In this document: positions 26,090 through 28,243 of the stretch, one piece after another
How the letters are laid out: the number at the start of each line of letters is the position of its first letter
Numbering within the stretch: the stretch's first letter is position 1
Assembly: GCA_019359415.1 (NCBI GenBank)
Contig: JAHHHH010000027.1
Coordinates: 1 to 64,000 of the forward strand
Origin: Iphinoe sp. HA4291-MV1
GTDB taxonomy: Bacteria > Cyanobacteriota > Cyanobacteriia > Cyanobacteriales > Nostocaceae
Length of the DNA stretch: 64,000 bases
Direction of reading: 5' to 3'
Translations under genes and position numbers: made by a program
Notes under the pieces: generated by a model
What the model was told of the DNA's origin: nothing
What the model saw: only the letters and a program-made list of their open reading frames with translations
The model's database searches: none

Positions 26090-28243
26090 TTATTTGACTT
26101 CTGAATCTTGTCCCTCAACAATTTCTTTTTGGATAGAGCGAATTTCTGCAGCTAATTCTTGCCGAGTAGAAGCTTTGAGTAGATATCGGTAAAAAAACCA
26201 TATTGCGTAACCAATTCCAGTTAACTCAAAAGCTAACTGTAACTGCGGAACTTCATTAATTACATCTAATACAGCTAGAACTATCTTAATTGCAACAGTC
26301 GCTGCAACAATTGAAGCAAAACAAATAATTGGTAGTTGGTATTCAGTGAAAAATCTACCCAAGTCTTTAGGCAATTGCTCCAAAAAATCAGAAAAATTTC
26401 CGCTCATTTGCTGCCATTGGGGTAATGATTCACTAGCAGGTGGTGGCAATGGCTGAGTTTCAGGTTTTGAACTTTCAAGTGCTGCGCTAGGTTCGGTTGA
26501 TGTAATATCAACAAATTTCGATTGTTGTACTTTGCTCTCCATAAGTTTCCTGTTTTGTTCAGTGAGCCACTCCGTTGCGGGGGTTCCCCCCGTTGTAGGA
26601 AGTGGCGAACCCGTAAGGGTGACAACAGTTTCCATCTGTGTAGTCAAGGGTTTTGCGCTTTGTGTAGGAGGATAAGACACCTCAGGTGTAAATATATTTG
26701 CATTCGCATCAAAACTCTTATCAGCAGGAGTTTCCCGAACCACCTTTTCTACAGACAAGATTTCGGCATTCTTGTTGAGAATAGTATTAATGATTTCGTC
26801 AGATTTCTCCTTCAAACTCTCATTATTTTCCTGATTTGATGTATCTTTCTCGGTCTCATCATCCCGGAGATCAAGTGCAGCCAATTTCATCAAAGGCGAG
26901 TAAATCGCATTGTACATATCGCGTGCCATATTCACAGCACCTTCAAATCCCATATACGGACCATTGTGATATCCATGTCCGTTGACATAAGGTAGGTGTA
27001 ATTTCTTCACCAATGCTCCCACCCTCGGTCCAGTTAGAACCAAATCGGGTTTGACCATGTCTAGCACCTCGAAAAATTCCAGTTCGTTGCTATCGTCAAT
27101 ATAGATAGTACCTTCTTGACCTCTAGCAATCACCTTTTCAAAGTCTTCTTGGTGACCAAACTTCGAGGACATGGCAACAACTCTCATACCCAAATCATCT
27201 TCCAGGGCTTTGGTCCAGTGCCATAATCTTGGTCCACCTGTCCAGATACAGACTTTTTTGCCTGTCAAGCGTTCCTTATACCACGCCAACTTGGATTCAT
27301 ATTTAGCCACCTCTTCGGCAATCACAGCTTCCGCTCTGTCCTCTATACCAAAGAAAGCACCGATTTTGCGCAACCCTTCTTTAGCATAGTCAAAGCCCCA
27401 AGTATCCACGTCCAGACGGGGAATACCATATCTTTTCTTCAACTCATTGGCAATGTATCCAGCAGAACGTGCACAGTTGGTGACATTTAACTGCGCTCTG
27501 TGCATGCCTCGCAATGAGTCATAAGTACCGTTGCCGGTAAAATGGGCGATGATTTGCACACCCATTTTTTCCATGTACTTCTCTAGGACAAACGTATCAC
27601 CTTGAATGTTGTAGTCGCCGATGACATTGATGGTATAAGGAGAAGTGATTTCTGGCTCAAACGTTCCTACCTTCTCATTCACCCAGCCAATATTGAGAAC
27701 GTGGTGACCTTTAGATTGACTGACACCGGCAAAACCTGGACATTCTACGCAGAAGATGTCTACATCACCAAGTTCTTTTTCTGCGCTTTTAACAACGGCT
27801 CTGATGTCATCTCCAATCAGTGCTGTGGCGCAGGTGCTGTAGACAATCATCCGTTTGATGTCGGGAAATTCGGCAAACGCTTCTAGTATGGATTTCTTGA
27901 GCTGCTTTTCACCACCGAAGACAACGTGCGACTCTTTCATGTCTGATGACCAGACATATTTGAGTTGGAAGTTACCGTTGTCACTGGGATAGCGTTTGGT
28001 GTGCCAGGTGTCGTAAGCACAGCCGATTGGTCCGTGAATCAATTGGATGGTGTCTTTAAGGACACCACCAATCACCAGTTTCGCTCCACAGTAGCTGCAT
28101 CCTCGCTCTGATAAGGAGCCGGGTATTGTTTCTACGTTGGAACTTGGGAGAAATTGTGTTGTATCTTCTCCCTTTTCTTTGATGTAAACGTGCTTTTCAC
28201 GTTCGGGTATGGCTTCGTCGCACTTCAGTAATTTCAATGCCAT
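26090..28243 (-). CDS. VnfD-like nitrogenase alpha subunit fused to a CAAD membrane anchor
   Basis: Residues 1-~460 align with vanadium nitrogenase VnfD. P-cluster-type cysteines are at 49, 75 and 138. The cofactor ligands are Cys257 (LNVTNCARS) and His423 ([10 protein letters not shown]). Gln176 and His180 (SQSKGHH), the TGGPRLWH loop at 335-342 and Lys361 match the remembered A. vinelandii numbering exactly. A ~160-residue Ser/Pro-rich linker follows. Residues ~615-717 then form a CAAD-like domain: two membrane helices ([40 protein letters not shown]) and an amphipathic tail ([17 protein letters not shown]). CAAD domains tether cyanobacterial aminoacyl-tRNA synthetases to thylakoids. No fused VnfG and no neighbouring VnfK exist. 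AAGGAG precedes the ATG. It could be a true subunit whose partners are elsewhere, or a repurposed nitrogenase-like protein. Confidence 0.9.

Follow-up and report, generated by a model that had tools for sequence, protein, structure and literature searches.

In Iphinoe sp. HA4291-MV1, a single gene, designated here vnfD-curT, encodes the alpha subunit of vanadium nitrogenase (V-nitrogenase; VnfD) joined to a complete CurT/CAAD-type membrane protein. The gene lies within the 64,000-nucleotide stretch of DNA that was analyzed (the window). It is best explained, with a probability of about one half, as a duplicate of vnfDG in which VnfG was mostly replaced by CurT; its product would pair with the VnfK common to both forms and tether some of the V-nitrogenase to heterocyst thylakoids. 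The features of the locus are listed in Table 1.

Table 1. Features of the vnfD-curT locus (positions in the window; residues refer to the product of vnfD-curT).
Feature	Position	Strand	Remarks
vnfD-curT, VnfD fused to CurT/CAAD protein, 717 aa	26090..28243	-	start ATG at 28243
VnfD domain, residues 3-462	26858..28237	-	TIGR01860, 995 bits (cut-off 823.1)
VnfG remnant, residues 482-521	26681..26800	-	TIGR02930, 23 bits (below cut-off 141.7)
Complete CurT-type tail, residues 568-717	26093..26542	-	56% identity to CurTb residues 1-141 of 144
CAAD domain, residues 627-709	26117..26365	-	PF14159, 87.3 bits (cut-off 30.7)
Palindromic repeat between P117 and vnfD-curT	28333..28396		
P117, small protein	28457..28810	-	vnf-type relatives 64-100% identical (own copy included); no Pfam match above cut-off
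NifH*, NifH paralogue	28895..29716	-	switch II DGLGN versus DVLGD; longer ORF to 29809 overlaps coxC
coxC	29733..30335	-	Pfam COX3
coxA	30562..32211	-	Pfam COX1
coxB	32254..33180	-	Pfam COX2
Two DUF2231 membrane proteins	33247..34349	-	beside coxB; also beside cox in related loci

A first, sequence-only reading had placed the gene at the same coordinates; it runs on the minus strand, and the plus-strand reading of the stretch is full of stops. Its assignment as VnfD was borne out by the equivalog model TIGR01860, and the scores for the AnfD (714.3 bits; cut-off 873.8) and NifD (394.2 bits; cut-off 653.55) models both remain below their own cut-offs. Among solved structures, the VnfD chain of 5n6y gives the best match, over residues 2-463. 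The eight positions that had been singled out as conserved are present in all 33 VnfD sequences compared; Cys49, Cys75, Cys138, Cys257, and His423 are presumably P-cluster and cofactor ligand positions, and Gln176, His180, and Lys361 lie nearby. The ligand positions are also intact in 13 of 13 complete fusions. Two signature patterns of VnfD taken from a passage of PMC2700964, Y-NGH-YHN and L-V-NCARS-GY, likewise occur in 33 of 33 sequences. The earlier suggestion of a metal-cofactor carrier is not favored, given that the VnfD part is near-identical to that of the resident VnfDG and keeps all ligands checked.

Behind VnfD, the Ser- and Pro-rich linker described from the sequence was confirmed as a Ser-, Pro-, and Thr-rich stretch between the VnfD and CAAD domains. 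The same reading regarded VnfG as absent, but a remnant of about 40 residues survives in the same interval, and alignment with the VnfDG of the same genome gives an E value of 2.6e-13 for the stretch around it. A complete C-terminal VnfG, as in the VnfDG fusion, is not found in vnfD-curT. The position of the remnant ahead of the tail indicates that vnfD-curT descends from a vnfDG duplicate. The remnant also precedes the tail in Brasilonema CT11 and Fischerella, and more weakly in Nostoc carneum and G397; the alignments did not reveal it in Calothrix brevissima and Nostoc 210A, and gave no useful score for Nostoc UHCC 0926.

The C-terminal CAAD anchor was upheld by PF14159. Members of the CAAD/CURT1 family have two membrane helices, and two had been proposed for this tail; by hydropathy, the first (residues 639-657; Kyte-Doolittle 2.52) is clear, whereas the second (residues 670-688) is weaker though plausible, at 0.95 here and 0.85-1.68 over 13 copies. 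An AlphaFold model of the tail is helical, with low confidence (mean pLDDT 60.6, pTM 0.21). The genome also encodes two separate, unfused CAAD proteins (149 and 144 aa), and the start methionine of the latter, here called CurTb, aligns with Met568 of vnfD-curT. CurTb is the better-scoring paralogue by bits in 11 of the 13 complete copies; the tails of N. carneum and G397 score slightly higher with the 149-aa protein. Since CAAD is homologous to CURT1/Curt1 (PMC4893482), the alignment from the start methionine onward indicates that the tail is a whole CurT-type protein rather than a bare domain. The tail keeps the CurT pattern across genera, as seen in invariant alignment columns. Its dN/dS is 0.14-0.87 over 11 pairs, a range that points to selection of uneven strength. 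That the fusion arose separately in each lineage is not favored, because the tails and the preceding linker motif align across genera and several genomes have the VnfG remnant ahead of the tail, although the Calothrix-like group has a tail far removed from the others and a second fusion is possible there. The VnfD parts cluster by genome, and a tree needs 12 changes of paralogue label.

Upstream of the fusion, coxB, coxA, coxC, NifH*, and P117 lie on one strand, with gaps of 16 nt (coxC to NifH*), 84 nt (NifH* to P117), and 213 nt (P117 to vnfD-curT). The oxidase neighbors pointed out earlier were thus confirmed, and the same one-strand order is found in Brasilonema CT11. Several further genomes, but not all, have cox genes in the fusion region in other orders. 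In other genomes, the fusion often runs divergently to NifH* and P117, and these two usually have a VnfR-like gene next to them. The genome has four COX1 genes. A 15-nt arm of the palindrome ahead of vnfD-curT has 23 matches in the genome at one mismatch or fewer, including three complete exact palindromes, and in several copies the folded leader has a small hairpin around the ribosome site. On the other side, a gene for a protein resembling selenium-binding protein or methanethiol oxidase (23442-25151; SBP56, 46 bits, cut-off 34) is convergent with vnfD-curT, and two adjacent genes at 20701-22499 encode carbonic-anhydrase-family proteins (Pro_CA), the second with a twin-arginine-like N-terminus.

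NifH*, which is vnf-associated, keeps the P-loop and both cluster cysteines and narrowly passes TIGR01287 (399.8 bits versus 394.35). Its switch II reads DGLG[NS] in all six NifH* inspected (tblastn returned further copies outside these six), compared with DVLGD in 19 of 19 other NifH/VnfH and ChlL sequences, and NifH* may have abnormal ATP turnover. NifH* as the sole VnfH was rejected, as a canonical NifH-class protein is encoded beside VnfR-like genes on contig C21. Among the functions that may be considered for the fusion is a regulatory or storage form, in which VnfD-CurT would hold VnfK, FeV-cofactor, or apoprotein at the membrane and thereby limit or buffer the soluble V-nitrogenase. The altered switch II would fit tight, non-cycling complexes, judging from the NifH mechanism, and the VnfK-facing surface is the same as in VnfDG, yet VnfG is missing. 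However, all catalytic ligands checked are kept, and we consider such a form quite improbable.

A scan of genome contigs covering 84,980 species returned 48 related loci, a number that also counts vnfDG and further nitrogenase genes. Complete fusions occur in 13 separate Nostocales genomes, which rules out an assembly artifact: Iphinoe sp. HA4291-MV1, Brasilonema CT11, Fischerella muscicola PCC 7414, N. carneum NIES-2107, G397, C. brevissima NIES-22, Nostoc 210A, C052, C057, UHCC 0926, and NMS4, as well as G472 and G490. In an order-level search of 388 genomes drawn from a larger group, matches at E<=1e-100 were found in six genomes, all from the host's family. Within this family, at least 37 of 218 genomes carry vnf genes: 23 with a VnfD-class match, one with a fragment (G432), 12 with VnfG and no recognized VnfD, and one with the tail only (G480); VnfG was sought solely in 13 genomes picked by P117, and 37 is thus a lower bound. 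The fusion is complete in 12 of these 37, and a tail cut by a contig edge is present in 11 (G384, G480, G481, G483, G524, G492, G356, G344, G509, G511, and G361). The last three are Rhizonema-like, and G361 has no VnfD residues left. A further three (G529, G530, and G503) have a form with an in-frame deletion. No fusion was seen in at least 11 of the 37, some of which are incomplete drafts; in G496, a CAAD stretch is present but broken. Plasmids typed as conjugative carry the vnf region with both VnfD copies in Nostoc C052 and C057 (loci L070 and L071). In G472 (locus L100), vnfDG is split into two frames and vnfD-curT is open; a sequencing error is possible.

The repeated VnfD sequence also affects how the enzyme is detected. 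Among the 35 of 218 family genomes with a vnf-type P117, VnfD is unrecognized in 13, and 12 of these have VnfG, in every case on a contig that breaks off inside VnfD or in the linker that follows. In G481, G483, G524, and G344, the VnfG tail and the CurT tail lie on separate contigs that both start at one and the same VnfD residue, a pattern that a collapsed repeat would produce. Surveys of drafts or MAGs for vnfD or vnfDG can for this reason overlook the enzyme. Among six moss Nostoc MAGs, three were described without vnfDG (PMC12416817), likely because of the VnfD repeat.

Both VnfD copies can be read whole in 10 genomes, with DNA identities of 95.2-100% in nine and 85.1% in Fischerella. In this genome, the fusion and the resident VnfDG differ at 2 of 455 residues, and in four Nostoc strains at none of 455. 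Each copy is closest to its own-genome partner in eight genomes; in G397 this applies to the fusion alone (the identity of the G397 vnfDG is 95.24% with a C. brevissima copy versus 95.16% within the genome), and in Fischerella to neither copy. Alignment columns that split by paralogue versus by genome number 2 versus 28 for this genome and CT11, 5 versus 30 for N. carneum and G397, 7 versus 34 for N. carneum and C. brevissima, 0 versus 65 for 210A and C052, and 0 versus 129 for UHCC and G490. A run test for conversion tracts was significant in six of the ten pairs (this genome, Fischerella, G397, C. brevissima, C052, and G490) and not in CT11, N. carneum, UHCC, and 210A; the last two pairs have 1 and 0 differences, respectively, which leaves the test powerless. 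The C052 copies are identical up to nt 917, followed by 22 differing sites, and the longest identical run in this genome spans nt 271-860. Between this genome and Nostoc 210A, dS is 0.23 for the tail, 0.36-0.54 for CoxA, CoxB, NifH*, and P117, and 0.79 for VnfK, compared with 1.3-1.4 for VnfD, suggesting that the VnfD stretch of the locus was overwritten by the resident vnfDG.

Such homogenization raises the question of whether the fusion is useful. The two copies often undergo conversion and exchange, three genomes have deleted forms, and conservation of VnfD in the homogenized genomes could result from gene conversion alone. The duplicate might accordingly be a passive by-product, sustained by recombination with vnfDG and presently useless. 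We find this very doubtful: the fusion is present, complete or cut by a contig edge, in 23 of the at least 37 vnf-bearing genomes, and the tail, which lies beyond the reach of conversion by vnfDG, keeps its CurT pattern across genera, even though dN/dS is not low in every pair. In addition, the Fischerella copies are far apart (dS 1.03) and have a dN/dS of 0.039, similar to vnfDG copies between genomes, indicating that purifying selection acts on the VnfD of the Fischerella fusion as well.

Conversely, the tail may be the working part. The gene would then encode a membrane-shaping protein under vnf regulation that uses the leader and N-terminus of vnfD, with VnfD as a passenger. CMAA1605, FACHB-130, and G530 have lost part or most of VnfD in frame and kept the tail, which indicates that the gene can be retained in these genomes without an intact VnfD and that the tail may have a role of its own. 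The CAAD core shows a dN of 0.005 against a dS of 0.11 between CMAA1605 and G530. Furthermore, four Nostoc pairs have a 5' leader common to the fusion and vnfDG, which measures about 330 bp in UHCC and about 500 bp in the other three (210A, C052, and G490), whereas only about 62 bp are common in this genome. The complete HT-58-2 genome (locus L112), in which vnfDG lacks residues about 136-544 by an in-frame loss and a stretch containing two identical 475-aa ORFs interrupts vnfK, has a decaying V-nitrogenase. A preserved frame alone thus proves little, and the in-frame deletions are weakened as proof of selection on the tail. With VnfD complete and all ligands present in 13 of 13 complete copies, and with the unhomogenized Fischerella VnfD under strong selection, a passenger VnfD is unlikely.

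Comparisons between strains, rather than within one culture, point to inversion and exchange at the VnfD copies. Nostoc C052 and G490 differ by an inversion of the DNA that separates the two copies (about 303.5-323 kb in C052); within it, 307.2-314.7 kb has no match of at least 400 nt in the G490 stretch. Outside the inverted segment, 6 kb of flank next to VnfK-E-N have the same orientation in both genomes, and on the other side, where the comparable part is the fusion gene with its tail only, orientation is also unchanged. From these alignments, the paired VnfD copies serve as inverted repeats, and a flip swaps the 5' regions of the two tails. Between N. carneum and G397, the upstream region of each fusion matches that of the other's vnfDG (3.2 kb at 93.3% identity in one direction, 6.7 kb at 94.7% in the other), with no fusion-to-fusion or vnfDG-to-vnfDG alignment upstream, and the downstream matches are at 95.9% and 96.7%. 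The copies are inverted in N. carneum and direct in G397, so this case is an exchange rather than a simple flip. In the draft JL34, in which the fusion was not found, the region upstream of vnfDG matches that upstream of the 210A fusion and not that of 210A vnfDG. It is conceivable, though quite unlikely, that the VnfD copies form an invertible element that switches the 5' regions of the soluble VnfDG-K-E-N and the membrane VnfD-CurT. Recombination at the inverted repeats would flip NifH*, P117, nifV, and in some genomes the cox genes. If this occurs within a culture, the shares of soluble and membrane-bound V-nitrogenase could be shifted, and conversion would keep the catalytic domain alike in both forms.

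In many heterocyst-forming cyanobacteria with a V-nitrogenase, near-identical catalytic copies, together with fusion to a membrane-shaping protein, suggest that part of an otherwise soluble nitrogenase is tied to a membrane. Nitrogenases are generally regarded as soluble enzymes. In the preferred reading, most of the VnfG part of a vnfDG duplicate would have been deleted and a complete CurT/CAAD protein put in its place. If expressed, the product would be a VnfD alpha subunit that carries a thylakoid anchor at its C-terminus and is inserted through this tail. PF00148 matches at 12 places in the genome (NifD, NifK, NifE, NifN, ChlB, ChlN, VnfK, a second NifE, two E/N-like proteins, VnfDG, and vnfD-curT), including a single VnfK and a single NifK. 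As the fusion has no beta subunit of its own, VnfD-CurT most likely pairs with this VnfK, which should meet the same surface given the few or absent differences in VnfD. Pairing may occur alone or in mixed tetramers with VnfDG, with VnfDG then supplying VnfG. VnfG is important for the VFe protein in Azotobacter, and the lack of a complete VnfG in the VnfD-CurT chain counts against the preferred reading. The tethered share, if active, would be held near an O2-removing oxidase and the ATP synthase that feeds nitrogenase. A position beside an oxidase in the heterocyst, as also proposed from the sequence, is plausible because valyl-tRNA synthetase (ValRS), a CurT homologue (Alr4119), Cox2, and Cox3 are all located at the honeycomb membranes of Anabaena heterocysts (PMC11500504). 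CAAD anchors ValRS to thylakoids and mediates an interaction with ATP synthase, and ValRS is concentrated at the heterocyst poles (PMC4893482).

The arrangement itself had been considered new; a near-complete VnfD duplicate with CAAD was, however, already reported in lichen-associated, vnf-bearing Nostoc, with a suggestion of thylakoid targeting (Gagunashvili and Andresson, 2018; PMC5987646). It is the same fusion, but the passage concerned says nothing of the whole tail being derived from CurT, or of the VnfG remnant, homogenization, inversion, the missing VnfK of its own, or the cox and NifH* neighbors. A full-text search of the open-licence literature gave no other paper on the fusion among the matches listed, and CAAD has no occurrence in the main texts of PMC6645180, PMC12416817, PMC13045013, and PMC4284476; a truncated gene is marked in the A. 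variabilis vnf region by Nelson et al. (PMC6645180). The whole-CurT origin joined at the start methionine, the VnfG remnant, the distribution, the homogenization, the inversion, and the single VnfK are new findings, drawn from sequence comparisons. Compared with the fused alpha and delta subunits of VnfDG, as described for A. variabilis (PMC4284476), vnfD-curT has a VnfD part 97% DNA-identical to that of its own resident vnfDG, and differs in the VnfG remnant, the CurT tail, and its own 5' region beyond the short common leader. Its tail sits behind VnfD, unlike stand-alone thylakoid-curvature proteins of the CurT/CURT1 type. CAAD-bearing aminoacyl-tRNA synthetases such as ValRS are likewise soluble enzymes with a C-terminal or inserted anchor, and thylakoid location has been shown for other CAAD proteins; vnfD-curT differs in being a nitrogenase subunit whose non-anchored paralogue is kept in the same cell, whereas Anabaena is described without a ValRS paralogue (PMC4893482).

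If the alpha subunit is indeed membrane-anchored, vnf-bearing cyanobacteria would place V-nitrogenase on a chosen membrane, and its O2 protection and ATP supply in heterocysts would become testable by removal of the anchor alone.
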